8,767 bases of DNA from Candidatus Dadabacteria bacterium. Its GTDB lineage: Bacteria > Desulfobacterota_D > UBA1144 > Nemesobacterales > JADFKM01. Positions 366 to 7,364 of this stretch are shown piece by piece (position 1 is the first letter of the stretch; every line of letters begins with the position of its first letter). The stretch spans positions 1 to 8,767 of the forward strand of contig JADFKM010000069.1 of the NCBI GenBank assembly GCA_022564935.1. Direction: 5' to 3'. A program made the translations under genes and the position numbers. Below the pieces are notes generated by a model. It was given only the letters and a program-made list of their open reading frames with translations. It did not search any database and had not been told where the DNA came from.

Positions 366-1076
366 GTGTTAGCTTTCGCAGCACTAATTTCTCCTGCCTA
401 CGGTGCCGATGGTTTGAGGACGCTAAGGGTCCTAAACAGCATAGTAACGGATTACTTCACCTTCTGGATGATTGCCGCGAGCGTAGTCGCCTATCTGTAC
501 CCTGGGTATTTTTCGCCTCTTGCGTATCTGATCACCCCCGCTTTGGGAGTGATAATATTTGGTATGGGGGTGACGCTTAGGACAGGGGACTTTAAGCGAG
601 TGCTCGAGAGGCCGGGGGACGTCTTTGTCGGGGCCGGGGCGCAGTATGTGTTTATGCCGCTCCTTGCGGCAGGGGTCGTTCTCGTCGGCTCATGTCCCGG
701 CGGGACGGCTTCGAATGTGATTACCTACCTTGCCCGCGCCGATGTTACCCTTTCAGTGAGTATGACGACCGCTTCCACTCTGCTCTCTCCTATATTCGTT
801 CCCCTTCTAACATACCTCTATGCTGGGAGGTGGATAGATGTGCCTGTGCTGAAACTGTTCATCAGCACGGTGGAAATAGTGCTCCTCCCTGTCGCTCTGG
901 GTATAGGCATAAGGTGGGCTTTAAGGCAGAAGATTGCAACGGCGGTGGAAGTGATGCCGATGGTCTCTTCATTGGGGATAATTTTCGTAGTGGGAGTGAT
1001 CGTAGCCGCAAACGCCGCTACGATAGGGTCTGTGAGGCTGAGCACGGGCGGCGCTTATGGAGCGGGCGATGAATGA
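366..1076 (+). CDS. Bile acid:sodium symporter (BASS) family transporter, internally deleted and C-terminally truncated; probable pseudogene
   Basis: The 236-residue product matches the YocS/ASBT-like BASS family of sodium-coupled organic-anion transporters in the inner membrane. Family signatures visible are GVIIFGMGVTL (residues 61-71), GSCPGGTASNVITYLAR (108-124), the SVSMTTASTLLSP segment (130-142) and VVGVIVAANAATIGSV (208-223). Intact members run to about 300 residues. Two things are missing. MPLLA (97-101) runs straight into AGVVLVG, where the family normally has about 17 more residues. Everything after residue 223 (about 85-90 residues, including the last helices) is replaced by an unrelated 13-residue tail. 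The GTG start has no clear Shine-Dalgarno; a TTG at 414 is an alternative that better matches the usual N-terminus. The reading frame overlaps the following permease start by 8 bases. Family assignment is firm; loss of function is inferred from remembered family length. Confidence 0.8.
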   Translation: MLAFAALISPAYGADGLRTLRVLNSIVTDYFTFWMIAASVVAYLYPGYFSPLAYLITPALGVIIFGMGVTLRTGDFKRVLERPGDVFVGAGAQYVFMPLLAAGVVLVGSCPGGTASNVITYLARADVTLSVSMTTASTLLSPIFVPLLTYLYAGRWIDVPVLKLFISTVEIVLLPVALGIGIRWALRQKIATAVEVMPMVSSLGIIFVVGVIVAANAATIGSVRLSTGGAYGAGDE

Positions 1077-1986
1077 GCTGACCGCTACTGGTTTAAACAG
1101 GCGTAAATACCCCATAAAGGGGTACCTGTTTCTCGTCTCTACAGCTTTTTTCACCGCGCTGTCATATGTATTCGCAAAGCTACTTCAGAGGGACTTAAAT
1201 CCCGAGACCATAACGTTTTTCTGGTTCTTCGGGGCTTTCTTCTTCGCCATGTTCGTGGTGGCTTTCATCCCTTCTCAAAGGGCGGAGCTGAAGAACCTCG
1301 GCAGTTACAAAAAGATATTCATATTAAGCTCCTTGGTGACCTCCGTTGGGGTGGCTTTGTGGATAATCTCGATTAAGACAATCGGGCTTCCGCTGACGTC
1401 CTTTCTCATGAAAACACAGACCCTTTTTTCCCTTTTCCTGGGAATGGCCTTCCTGGGCGAAAGGCTGAACAGGGGAGAGGTCCTGGGCGTCATCATCACG
1501 ATCATCGGAGGCGTTGTGGTGGCGTATCAAAGGGACTTCGGGCTTTTATTAGGCACGGCGACAGCGGTGCTTTCTGCGTTCTTCTACTCCTTCCTAGCCT
1601 TCCTGGTAAAACGCATAGCCCAGGACCTGAACATGCTCACCGTGGCTAACCTGCGCGCCCTTGGGGTCTCGATTGTGATGTTCACCTACCTGATGGTGAG
1701 CGGCAGGTTCATGATGCCTGAGTTTATAGACGTCATATACATGGCCCTGGGCGGGCTGAGCGGCGCTTACATAGCAAAGGCGAGCCAGTTCCAGTCCATA
1801 AAACTGCTTGACGTGTCACGCAGTACGGCGGTGATGCCGATGGAGTCCATTTTCGTGGTGGCCTTCTCATACATCTTTTTCGACTCGCTGCCCTCCCCGG
1901 TGAAGCTCCTCGGTGGGGCGATAATACTCACCGGAGTGGTGTTCCTGATAATTTTCAGGGGCGAGCAGGACGTTATGGGGAAGTGA
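1069..1986 (+). CDS. DMT superfamily (EamA-type) transporter
   Basis: A 305-residue inner-membrane permease with about ten hydrophobic helices (roughly 18-38, 48-68, 84-101, 109-130, 137-152, 156-180, 192-211, 221-237, 254-271, 279-296), the usual size and layout of the duplicated EamA fold. The hallmark at the end of the first repeat is the run SFLMKTQTLFSLFLG followed by GERLNRGEVLGVIITIIGG (111-148). The second repeat shows the corresponding STAVMPMESIFVV (252-264) and a final glycine-rich helix. Family members export amino acids, metabolites or drugs; the substrate cannot be read from sequence. I chose ATG 1069 over ATG 1057 because GGAG at 1059-1062 sits 6 bases upstream of it. It overlaps the end of the BASS frame, so it may be translationally coupled to it. 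No clear terminator lies in the 82-base gap before the convergent ddl. Confidence 0.9.
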   Translation: MNELTATGLNRRKYPIKGYLFLVSTAFFTALSYVFAKLLQRDLNPETITFFWFFGAFFFAMFVVAFIPSQRAELKNLGSYKKIFILSSLVTSVGVALWIISIKTIGLPLTSFLMKTQTLFSLFLGMAFLGERLNRGEVLGVIITIIGGVVVAYQRDFGLLLGTATAVLSAFFYSFLAFLVKRIAQDLNMLTVANLRALGVSIVMFTYLMVSGRFMMPEFIDVIYMALGGLSGAYIAKASQFQSIKLLDVSRSTAVMPMESIFVVAFSYIFFDSLPSPVKLLGGAIILTGVVFLIIFRGEQDVMGK

Positions 1987-2068
1987 GGTGGGAGCTCAAG
2001 GGGGGCTTAAAGCATGGCGGTTTCCTGCTTATGACTGCTATATGGAAGGCATAGTGGTGCGGTGATGT

Positions 2069-3175
2069 CTAGTCCTCTTCGTAGTCCGTCTCAAGCGCCT
2101 TTACCTGCTCGTTCCTCTCAATCGCCAGGCGTATGAGCCTTGTGATAAGCTCGCTGTACTCAAGCCCCGTCGCCTCCCACAGCCTTGGGTACATGCTTAT
2201 GTGTGTGAATCCGGGGATGGTGTTTATTTCACTGAGATAAATTTCTTCCAAGCTCCCTTCCAGGAAAAAATCGGCCCGGCACATACCTGCGCAGTCAAGC
2301 GCCTTGAACGCTCTTATTGAATAGTCCTGGAGCCGCTCGACCGTTTCTTCGGACAAGTCCGCCGGGGCAATGAGATCCGTGCCAACTTCTAAGTACTTCG
2401 CCCTGTAGTCGTAGAACTCTCTGTGCGGGATGATCTCTCCCGGAAGAGAAGCTACGGGGCTGTCGTTGCCGAGCACGGCTACCTCGATCTCGCGGCCGTC
2501 TATGACGGCGTGCTCCACGAGAATCCGCCTCGAATACCTGGCCGCAAGCTCCACGGCGGCCTCAAGCTCCTGCTTTATGTTCACCCTTGTTATTCCGACG
2601 CTTGAGCCCAGGTTTGCAGATTTCACGAAGCACGGTACACCTACCGCAGAAAGTACGCGCTCTAACATGTCCGTCCTGTCAATTTCCCACTCATGCTTGT
2701 TGAGCCAGGTGTAGTCCAGCACCGGGATCCCGGCCTCCTTCAGCACGGCTTTGGTCACTATCTTATCCATCGCGACCGAAGAGCCCAGCACCGCCGCTCC
2801 CACGAACGGTACCCCCATGAGAGCGAGAACTCCCTGAATAGAGCCGTCCTCTCCGCCGGGACCGTGGAGTATGGGGAAGATGACGTCCACTCTGTGCTCC
2901 TTGAGGATTGTGTCGGGGGCGATTTCGTAGATAACGGGTATTCCGGGGTCGAGGGACGGAGAGAGTACGGAGCTTCTTTCGATGCGAGGCTCGCCCCCTG
3001 TAAGCCAGGATTCGGTATTTGCGAGTCTCCAGGCCCCAGTTTTCTCAATGAAAACGGGAAATGGCCGGAACTGCGTCGTATCGAGGTTGGCGAGGATGGA
3101 TTTCGCCGAGATCAGCGAGATATCATGCTCTAAGCGACTGCCGCCGAAAACAATGGCTACCGTTAATTTCCCCAA
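2069..3175 (-). CDS. ddl: D-alanine--D-alanine ligase
   Basis: A 368-residue cytoplasmic ATP-grasp enzyme that joins two D-alanines for the peptidoglycan pentapeptide. Visible motifs are FGGSRLEHDISLISA (10-24, with the substrate-binding Glu16), HGPGGEDGSIQG (104-115), SSVAMDK (132-138), FVKSANLGSSVGI (183-195, ATP-binding Lys185 and the Ser-Ser-Val loop), EFYDYRAKY (253-261), CRADFF (299-304) and SEINTIPGFTHISMYP (315-330, metal-binding Glu316 and Asn318). The tyrosines in the omega-loop motif favour D-Ala-D-Ala over the D-Ala-D-lactate form, where a phenylalanine is usual. Length fits the longer DdlA-like class. The start is TTG at 3175, supported by AGGGG six bases upstream and the immediate GKLTVAIVFGG N-terminus. 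Serine replaces the usual proline after Lys185. The gene stands alone, convergent with the DMT permease and divergent from the thiolase, not in a mur/fts cluster. Confidence 0.95.
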   Translation of the reverse strand: MGKLTVAIVFGGSRLEHDISLISAKSILANLDTTQFRPFPVFIEKTGAWRLANTESWLTGGEPRIERSSVLSPSLDPGIPVIYEIAPDTILKEHRVDVIFPILHGPGGEDGSIQGVLALMGVPFVGAAVLGSSVAMDKIVTKAVLKEAGIPVLDYTWLNKHEWEIDRTDMLERVLSAVGVPCFVKSANLGSSVGITRVNIKQELEAAVELAARYSRRILVEHAVIDGREIEVAVLGNDSPVASLPGEIIPHREFYDYRAKYLEVGTDLIAPADLSEETVERLQDYSIRAFKALDCAGMCRADFFLEGSLEEIYLSEINTIPGFTHISMYPRLWEATGLEYSELITRLIRLAIERNEQVKALETDYEED

Positions 3176-3202
3176 GTTTGGCCCCTTAACTGCGGTTCCC
3201 TT

Positions 3203-3231
3203 ATCGTCACCCCTTAGCCAGTTAATGTCAA
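3203..3231 (-). promoter_or_regulatory. Candidate sigma70 promoter for ddl
   Basis: On the minus strand a perfect TTGACA (3231-3226) is followed after 17 bases by GACGAT (3208-3203). The -10 is weak, matching only the second, fifth and sixth consensus positions. Transcription would begin near 3196 and give a leader of about 20 bases that includes the AGGGG Shine-Dalgarno. Nothing else definite was seen in the stretch between this site and the thiolase promoter (about 3232-3431). Confidence 0.4.
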
Positions 3232-3431
3232 GTCTACACAGTCCGGTGAGTTTTTTAGTCGCGGCTCCCGCCAGGCGTTCCTCGGCATCGGTGCATTAGT
3301 ATTTAGAATAGGGGGTTTCATTCACTCAGGGAAGGCCGTTTATGCTCTTACTTCCCATGTTCATGGACATCACGACACCGGACCAAATCGAACCTGCTTT
3401 GAATTTGATTGGGCGTCGCGTACCCCAAATT

Positions 3432-5112: not shown

Positions 5113-7008
5113 CTAAAACCTAAGCAGGTTCCAGTACCACAGCATCCAGTAGAACGCCAGGGCGGCCACGGTGACCATGGTGTAGTGAACCCTCCCGAAC
5201 GTTTCCCAGTACCCGGCACTCCACGCTTTTCTTGCAAACAGGATAACAAGGATTGTGAGTAAGGCTGTGAGCTTCGGTATATTGAGTAGAAAATTCATCG
5301 CACCCGGCACTCCGTAGCGGTATTCATGCACAGGCACGGAGTAGAGAACCAAGGCAAATCCGGCGAGAAATATTATGTTTAGGGCGCACATTAGCCAGGC
5401 CGTGACCCTTGCTATGCGTTTTGAGGCCGATGGAGGGGGTCTGTGTGTTAACAGGCGCCGGGCGAAATGGTCATAGGGCCATTCGAATATTGCGTATAAA
5501 AATACAAGCATTATGAGCGCCAGGAGGCTGAGTTGAAAGGCATTTGTCTCATACCAGGATATTTTCCTGAGCGAGGAGGTTTCAAAGAGCATATGCGTGA
5601 CCCTGCCGCCCTCGTCTATGTTGAAACCTACGAACTTGCTTTGAGAAGCGGCTTTAAAAATATGGGATTTGGTCTGAACGAGTAAAAGGGTTTCATTATT
5701 TCCCAAAGGGTAGTTGAGCACTAAGGCTCCATAGTTGTTCAGTTTTACTTTGAATTGGTTGAAGAAGTTCCCGAACTTCTCGGAGCCGTCGCCGTAATAG
5801 AGCTCCATTCGGTAGCTTCCCTCATACATACTTAAATCCCCCTCAGACTGAGGCGTTTGAATATCGGAAGGCGCGGAGCCATTTTTAGGATAGTATTTAT
5901 CGAGCAGCCTGCTCGAGAGCCTCTCCGCCAGTCTTGGGTCAAACTTGTTGTATGCTACGAAGAATCCTAAGTTGCGGTCGGGAAGCATGAATATCTGGCT
6001 GTAATAACCCGGAATTCCCCCCTTGCTCCATATCGCCCGCTGCCCGTTTATGTTGTGCTCTATCAACCCAATGCCTACCCCGGGCATTGCGCTGTGGAAG
6101 GAGTATTGACGTCCTTGCATCTTAAGAACTGAGCGTTTTGTAAGTATTTCCGCTTCCCCCAAGCTGCCGCCCTGAAGGAAAGCGATCATGAATCTCGATA
6201 TGTCCCCTGCGGTTGAAAAAAGTCCAACGGCAGGTTCGAGGTTGGAAAAGTCCCTTGAAATGGGTAGGAAATCGCCGTTTTTGTAGTTATAGCCGAGCGC
6301 AAAATCCTTGCTCAGGTCCAGACCGGGGTTAAACATGCTCCTCCCCATGCCGAGCGGTTTGAATATGTTATGCTCGACGTAATCCGTGAAATTCAGGTCG
6401 GTGGCTTCCTCTACGATGTAGCCGAGAAGCCCGTATCCGTGGTCAGAGTAGTTTATTGTGTATCCGGGCTGATAGGCAACTTCGGGCATCTGGAAAGATA
6501 GGTACCTTTCAAGGTACTGCACTTCCGATCTTTTCTTTGAGGCGGTTCCAAGGAACTTCGACCTGAACCCTCCGGTATGGGTGAGCAAGTTGAGCACGGT
6601 TAGAGGGTTTTTGTAATGTGGCTTTATCTTAAAAGAGCTTACGTATTTATTTACATCGTAATTTAGGTCAATAACCCCCTTTTCAGCAAGCTGCATTATG
6701 GCAGTGGCTGTAAACAGTTTTGATGTTGGGCCAATCTTGAACATTGTGACGTAGGGGTCTGTCAATATCTGGTTGTCTACGTCGGAAAATCCCCACCCCT
6801 TCGCAATCCATACTTCCCCGTCTTTTACAATGACAAACACCGCCCCGGGTATGCCGAGCTTTGACATTTCCTGGGTAAAAAACAGGTCGAGGAAGTCCTC
6901 GAACTCAATCGGTTCCCATTTTGTGAATATTTTCGTCTCTTCGAGTAGCGGTTCTTGTGACCCGGCTAACTCTGCCGTACATAGTGAAATGGGAATTATT
7001 GCGCACAC
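5113..7008 (-). CDS. Serine-hydrolase / beta-lactamase-fold (PF00144-type) membrane protein with the catalytic Ser replaced by Pro
   Basis: A 631-residue protein of the class C beta-lactamase / penicillin-binding-protein-like family, with an exported N-terminus, a periplasmic catalytic-type domain (about 37-375), a beta-rich linker (about 393-485) and about four C-terminal membrane helices (489-509, 533-558, 572-592, 609-628). The fold is clear from LFTATAIMQLAEKG (98-111), LTHTGGF (142-148), the YSD motif at 187-189, NIFKPLGM (214-221), LFSTAGDISRF (263-273) and SKGGIPGYYS (328-337), where the third motif is K-G-G. The SxxK motif, expected as GSTSK, reads GPTSK (93-97): Lys97 is kept but the nucleophile is Pro94 (codon CCA, 6729-6727). 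This predicts a pseudoenzyme, a recently inactivated gene or a sequence error. The GTG at 7008 lacks a nearby Shine-Dalgarno; the frame stays open upstream to an ATA at 7035 that would give a better signal peptide. Targets of active relatives are peptides, D-amino-acid peptides or esters; none can be assigned here. Confidence 0.85.
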   Translation of the reverse strand: MCAIIPISLCTAELAGSQEPLLEETKIFTKWEPIEFEDFLDLFFTQEMSKLGIPGAVFVIVKDGEVWIAKGWGFSDVDNQILTDPYVTMFKIGPTSKLFTATAIMQLAEKGVIDLNYDVNKYVSSFKIKPHYKNPLTVLNLLTHTGGFRSKFLGTASKKRSEVQYLERYLSFQMPEVAYQPGYTINYSDHGYGLLGYIVEEATDLNFTDYVEHNIFKPLGMGRSMFNPGLDLSKDFALGYNYKNGDFLPISRDFSNLEPAVGLFSTAGDISRFMIAFLQGGSLGEAEILTKRSVLKMQGRQYSFHSAMPGVGIGLIEHNINGQRAIWSKGGIPGYYSQIFMLPDRNLGFFVAYNKFDPRLAERLSSRLLDKYYPKNGSAPSDIQTPQSEGDLSMYEGSYRMELYYGDGSEKFGNFFNQFKVKLNNYGALVLNYPLGNNETLLLVQTKSHIFKAASQSKFVGFNIDEGGRVTHMLFETSSLRKISWYETNAFQLSLLALIMLVFLYAIFEWPYDHFARRLLTHRPPPSASKRIARVTAWLMCALNIIFLAGFALVLYSVPVHEYRYGVPGAMNFLLNIPKLTALLTILVILFARKAWSAGYWETFGRVHYTMVTVAALAFYWMLWYWNLLRF

Positions 7009-7046
7009 AAATGCCGTGACGATATTGCGAACTATTGTAGGAAATC

Positions 7047-7053
7047 TCCTTTA
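7047..7053 (-). promoter_or_regulatory. Shine-Dalgarno AAAGGAG pointing to an upstream start of the hydrolase
   Basis: The minus strand reads AAAGGAG at 7053-7047. It is 38 bases from the GTG at 7008, too far to serve it, but about 11 bases from an in-frame ATA at 7035-7033. From that ATA the protein would begin MVRNIVTAFVCAIIPI, giving the positive n-region and hydrophobic core of a signal peptide. No ATG, GTG or TTG lies in frame between the site and 7008. Confidence 0.6.
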
Positions 7054-7342: not shown

Positions 7343-7364
7343 AGCGCCGGGAGCTCCCGGCGCT
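7343..7364. repeat. Perfect 22-base palindrome
   Basis: The half AGCGCCGGGAG is followed directly by its exact reverse complement. As RNA it folds to a 9-bp GC-rich stem with an AGCU loop. It is much more GC-rich than its surroundings. The lack of a T-run on either side argues against an intrinsic terminator; a protein-binding site, a REP-like unit or an RNA 3' structure remain possible. Confidence 0.75.

Follow-up and report, generated by a model that had tools for sequence, protein, structure and literature searches.

A membrane-anchored S12-fold protein with proline at the nucleophile position, probably a pseudoenzyme

The gene on the reverse strand at 5113..7008 of the window (the whole stretch of DNA that was analysed, 8,767 nucleotides) encodes a PF00144 protein (peptidase family S12 / class C beta-lactamase type) with a C-terminal membrane domain, in which an essential catalytic residue, the nucleophilic serine of the SxxK motif, is replaced by proline. 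Loss of such a residue is a feature of pseudoenzymes, and we lean, with modest confidence, towards reading the product as a non-catalytic, membrane-anchored binding protein. In our literature search, no paper turned up that describes a naturally occurring pseudoenzyme with the serine beta-lactamase/PBP-like S12 fold. Such proteins, if maintained, would show what role the S12 fold and a membrane domain can play without catalysis; in genome and resistance surveys, moreover, Ser-less S12 proteins risk being wrongly annotated as beta-lactamases or serine hydrolases.

The gene and the predicted structure of its product

Read from GTG, the frame at 5113-7008 comprises 631 codons, and no stop interrupts it for about 14 codons further upstream. 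Residues 43-361 match PF00144 with an E-value of 3.9e-55 (187.8 bits, against a gathering score of 27), and alignments to full-length homologues, which share up to 37% identity, reach residue 631; the homology takes in the beta-rich linker and C-terminal helices and places the protein in a full-length, TM-anchored S12 family. No other PF00144 gene was found in the source genome (2.0 Mb in 104 contigs, 88.6% complete). The gene's codon use is typical of that genome, whose coding density is 0.81 (ORFs of at least 100 aa, 702 kb). A comparison with anti-phage defence families gave no match.

The AlphaFold model of the 631-aa protein, built with 61 sequences, has a mean pLDDT of 90.8. Its serine-hydrolase fold domain (residues ~33-375; 5884..6912, reverse strand), where pLDDT mostly exceeds 90 and which was delimited by VIA-align against Pab87 (2qmi), adopts a class C beta-lactamase-like fold, with Z of 37-41 against S12 structures; the best matches are Pab87 (Z 40.8), IS11 esterase, Lip3 DL-peptidase, EstG, LACTB and ClbP (Z 37.5). 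Between this domain and the membrane helices, DSSP on the model delineates a beta-rich domain (residues ~395-484; 5557..5826, reverse strand). The four membrane helices that the earlier note had read from the sequence reappear in the model as four long, hydrophobic C-terminal helices, predicted at residues 489-519 (5452..5544), 528-557 (5338..5427), 577-598 (5215..5280) and 603-625 (5134..5202), all on the reverse strand. Among the structural matches are solved catalytic-serine mutants, namely AmpC S64G/S64D and ClbP S95A, and because these keep the fold, the S12 fold evidently survives without its serine. In the model Pro94 forms the N-terminal start of helix 93-109, and proline is tolerated at the start of a helix.

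Alterations in the active-site motifs

Codon 94 is CCA (6727..6729, reverse strand) and places proline at the SxxK nucleophile position, within K-I-G-P-T-S-K-L-F-T-A-T-A-I-M-Q-L, an assignment on which sequence, alignments and model agree. The residue is serine in 87/87 full-length homologues of our first set; in an enlarged set of 176 aligned relatives, comprising the first homologues and draws from five further groups, it is serine in 172, aspartate in three, alanine in one and proline in none. The SxxK serines of Flp, Pab87 and Lip3 likewise align with Pro94 in PDB alignments. The earlier note's central observation is thereby borne out; that note had singled out the gene for this very residue, but with an invariant column chance does not come into question. 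The SxxK lysine, which it had reported as kept, is indeed present as Lys97 (AAA, 6718..6720, reverse strand) and is invariant in 87/87. Neither orthologues with Pro94 nor relatives of at least 50% identity were found among 57 genomes of the phylum and in five other phyla-level groups, each sampled evenly at 338-396 genomes, and single-protein scans of viral contigs and genome contigs returned no relatives of the 631-aa protein.

The second motif, Y187-S188-D189 (6442..6450, reverse strand), was recognized in the earlier note as YSD and stands up in the homologue alignment: Tyr187 is found in 87/87 homologues, and Asn is usual at 189 (81/87). YSD, YGD, YTD or YSS occur in relatives whose serine and histidine are intact, with Asp in the cyanobacterial ones; Asp189, considered as a further catalytic loss, is accordingly not diagnostic and was set aside as a seemingly tolerated variant.

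The third motif has fared differently. In alignments without gaps, the family's H-x-G falls on S328-K329-G330 (6019..6027, reverse strand), so that the [HK]xG of an active S12 hydrolase is replaced by SKG (query WSKGGIPGY vs, for example, GHGGNIRGF and EHGGTDPGF in relatives). Column 328 holds His in 83 of the 87 homologues and K, K, Q and A in the others, never Ser, whereas Gly330 is invariant (87/87); the step from His to Ser (AGC) takes two base changes. The K-G-G that had been taken for an intact third motif is present as letters at 329-331, and a one-residue bulge may put Lys329 at the third-motif position instead of Ser328, but K329-G330-G331 was rejected as the motif because it requires an insertion and a deletion within ~8 residues. 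The claim that everything around the proline is intact therefore falls: the third motif differs, and ATA stands where the Shine-Dalgarno sequence leads one to expect a start codon. Codon 315 (TTG, 6064..6066, reverse strand) further encodes Leu where the alignment of the first 87 homologues has Phe throughout, and Leu, Trp, Met or Tyr appear there rarely in the enlarged set. Since some relatives in that enlarged set lack His328 while keeping Ser, the alignments suggest that the change at 328 may predate the loss of catalysis.

Loss of catalysis, gene decay or sequence error

How did such a gene come about? One answer is that it is dying: an active enzyme lineage whose third motif was unusual would lately have lost Ser94 to proline and its start codon to ATA, and the frame would be open for want of time. 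The main evidence for this lies at the 5′ end, where a strong seven-base Shine-Dalgarno sequence, AAAGGAG (7046..7052, reverse strand), is followed 10 bases after GGAG, where a start codon is expected, by an in-frame ATA (7033..7035, reverse strand); the GGAG-to-start spacing in the source genome peaks at 7-10. A start at this ATA would yield a complete signal peptide, (M)VRNIVTAFVCAIIPISLCTAELA. There is no ATG, GTG or TTG between it and the GTG at 7008, which is without a Shine-Dalgarno sequence and clips the signal peptide, and for these reasons loss of the start codon is possible. The ATA may be a rare AUA start, translation may begin weakly at the GTG, or the start codon may have been lost; general use of AUA starts in the source genome was considered and rejected, as the other Shine-Dalgarno-linked ATA codons (702 kb) come after an ATG or some other start or are internal to coding sequence. 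That genes decay nearby is indicated by the neighbouring SBF/PanS-type transporter gene (366-1076, forward strand, 236 aa), which compared with its families is missing ~14 residues internally as well as the C-terminal third and is probably a pseudogene or a deletion remnant running into an EamA gene. Nor does the open frame weigh heavily against gene death: a random substitution creates a stop in about 3.3% of cases, and intactness therefore bounds neutral change only to a few tens of substitutions, and the earlier note's use of the intact codons as an argument for recent loss or a maintained role carries little by itself.

What speaks against gene death is where the changes fall, for random decay would not cluster at the active site. 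The protein keeps 69 of the 80 columns conserved at >=85%, and three of its 11 deviations lie on the five catalytic-motif positions (hypergeometric P 0.017, with no correction for the choice of the gene by its serine loss; any P value that includes codon 94 is weakened by that choice). Among all 88 sequences 77 have no deviation at these five positions and ten have one; the query has three, and no other of the 87 more than one. When 50 random substitutions were simulated, codons 94, 315 and 328 were all struck in <0.1% of trials, and the histidine codon in addition had to change twice. The conserved non-catalytic columns are meanwhile kept normally, with 8 deviations against 9.8 expected from the end-branch length (sd 3.0). 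The root-to-tip distance is unremarkable (rank 50 of 88), and the end branch is about 1.7x that of the weakly supported sister L048 (1.56 vs 0.94, mixture model), a length that fits a shift of function and relaxed constraint alike. Taken together, the constraint numbers favour loss of catalysis with the fold maintained over simple decay, and we regard gene death as the main rival account, possible but less likely. A consensus or assembly error at 6727-6729, with serine as the true residue, would be easy to envisage in a draft genome that is incomplete (88.6%) and divided among 104 contigs, given that CCA is one transition from a Ser codon; a single error, however, could not reach the atypical Ser328 and Leu315, and the frame is otherwise clean across 631 codons, which leaves this explanation very improbable. 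Might the protein instead remain catalytic, with Thr95, Ser96 or Ser328 taking over, or with Lys97 and Tyr187 providing general base chemistry? Lys97 and Tyr187 are both kept, but positions 95 and 96 are each variable (at 96, S 58, T 20, G 7 and A 2 across the 87 homologues), and both residues occur beside Ser94 in active-looking relatives; we give continued catalysis very little credence. No other nucleophile emerges from the alignment, for Ser96, which the earlier note had named as a possible alternative, is simply the variable S/T/G/A position of SxxK. Among the three readings put forward in that note, the pseudoenzyme has gained support, recent inactivation stays alive through the ATA at the expected start, and a consensus error on its own is disfavoured, since it would explain neither the second lost catalytic position (His328 to Ser) nor the Leu in place of the near-invariant Phe315.

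Family members that have lost the serine

The Pro94 protein is not the only full-length member of the family without the nucleophile. The three aspartates of the enlarged set belong to a clade from three genomes (L218, L219 and L234) with FPMED[IL]AK at the first motif, YGD at the second, and the histidine, lysine and tyrosine kept; the members are 57-71% identical and the clade is fully supported in the tree. Their loci, at 7569-9518 of L237 (forward strand), 209-2146 of L238 (reverse strand) and 2-1597 of L239 (reverse strand), encode full-length S12 membrane proteins. For the closest pair dN/dS is ~0.08, an indication only, as dS is saturated. The gene stands divergent to a heavy-metal (Zn/Cd-type) P-type ATPase in 3/3 genomes (the one ATPase tested scores above the cut-offs of TIGR01525 and TIGR01512), and a ZupT-like ZIP transporter lies beyond the ATPase in the two genomes where the contig reaches that far. 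At other homologue loci, whose flanks are short (1.5-3 kb), an ATPase neighbour was sought and only a weak partial match, at L050, was seen. From the low dN/dS and the kept gene order, non-catalytic members of this full-length family are evidently kept by selection, to judge from such comparative data.

A further member, L212 (read on the reverse complement of ~1501-3300), combines Ala94, Ser97, Ser189 and Glu328 within an intact frame of 635 codons, and its sister L203 has Ser94. Parsimony on the tree has serine lost three separate times, which suggests at least three losses in the full-length family; a sister relation between the query and the Asp clade is not supported. As the remainder of the Pro94 protein is normally constrained and Ser-less members have arisen independently, one group of them under purifying selection, the pseudoenzyme reading is supported. 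A metal site made up of Asp94, Asp189 and His328 is possible in the Asp clade. A broader proposal, on balance a doubtful one, is that membrane-anchored S12 hydrolases repeatedly became non-catalytic receptors, the Pro94 protein being one, and that the Asp-clade protein, its pocket remade with these three residues, would sense metal outside the cytoplasm or act there as a metal chaperone, serving the Zn/Cd P-type ATPase and the ZupT-like transporter next to it. The kept gene order makes the clade's link to metal homeostasis a testable one. Elsewhere in the family, L042 / L169 (G062:C143:5482-7335) has one in-frame TGA in its homologue match, very near the C-terminus.

Comparison with known systems and a proposed role

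Among the closest known systems are full-length PF00144 proteins annotated 'serine hydrolase domain-containing' that end in membrane helices. Two examples, WP_181824415.1 of Chroococcidiopsis thermalis pCHRO.01 (L031) and the acidobacterial L048, are 36-37% identical to the query over the whole length and have in common with it the beta-rich linker, the C-terminal helices, the lysine, the tyrosine and the third-motif glycine, but they carry Ser94 and His328 where the query has Pro94 and Ser328. On pCHRO.01 this Ser-type homologue (L031, 2782-7237) directly precedes the poly-gamma-glutamate synthase genes pgsB and pgsC/capC. The Asp clade is alike in being full-length and without the nucleophile, in keeping Lys and Tyr and in having Asp in the second motif; it differs in its Asp rather than Pro at 94, its retained histidine and its location beside the heavy-metal ATPase. 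Pab87 of Pyrococcus abyssi is octameric and is not known to have membrane helices. It is the best fold match (PDB 2qmi; Z 40.8, rmsd 2.7 over 333 residues, 33-375), differing in that its SxxK serine is present. Lip3 DL-peptidase (PDB 9sn1), an S12 domain with a C-terminal extension, aligns across model residues 30-630 (Z 39.0), and differs in having both the serine and a third-motif lysine in the sequence alignment.

The most instructive precedent is provided by the ClbP-type prodrug-activating peptidases (PDB 7mdc, 7mde and 7mdf), which also place an S12 domain outside the membrane and continue into membrane helices (Z 37.5 over 337 residues). ClbP has three TM helices, against the four predicted here, and an active Ser95, and where the two proteins align they are 19% identical; the NRPS/PKS genes expected of a ClbP-type prodrug cluster are absent from the 8,767-nt window. 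ClbP variants S95A and K98T, and even a PhoA fusion with only the three helices, support siderophore-microcin activity (PMC6776366), and since that activity persists without catalysis, ClbP sets a precedent for action through the membrane domain. ClbP S95A moreover binds a substrate analogue without cleaving it (PMC9889268), which by analogy is what a Ser-less receptor would do.

For the Pro94 protein we therefore picture, on the pseudoenzyme reading, a signal-peptide-bearing, four-helix, membrane-anchored protein of the PF00144/S12 fold, in which Pro94 and Ser328 would prevent formation of an acyl-enzyme while the fold, Lys97, Tyr187 and the membrane domain are kept. Its extracytoplasmic pocket would bind a peptide-like ligand without cleavage, or would be vestigial, and the retained activity would lie in the membrane domain or in the binding of a partner; a non-catalytic receptor or scaffold seems the most likely role. 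In this scheme, translation of the gene, ligand binding and any partner are what we infer.

Two further features of the window deserve mention. A perfect 22-base palindrome, AGCGCCGGGAGCTCCCGGCGCT, occupies positions 7343-7364, in a 600-base gap before an S24 repressor-like gene. The D-alanine-D-alanine ligase gene at 2069-3175 (reverse strand) has a TTG start and an N-terminal GGSRLEH, where GGRSxEH is usual in these ligases.
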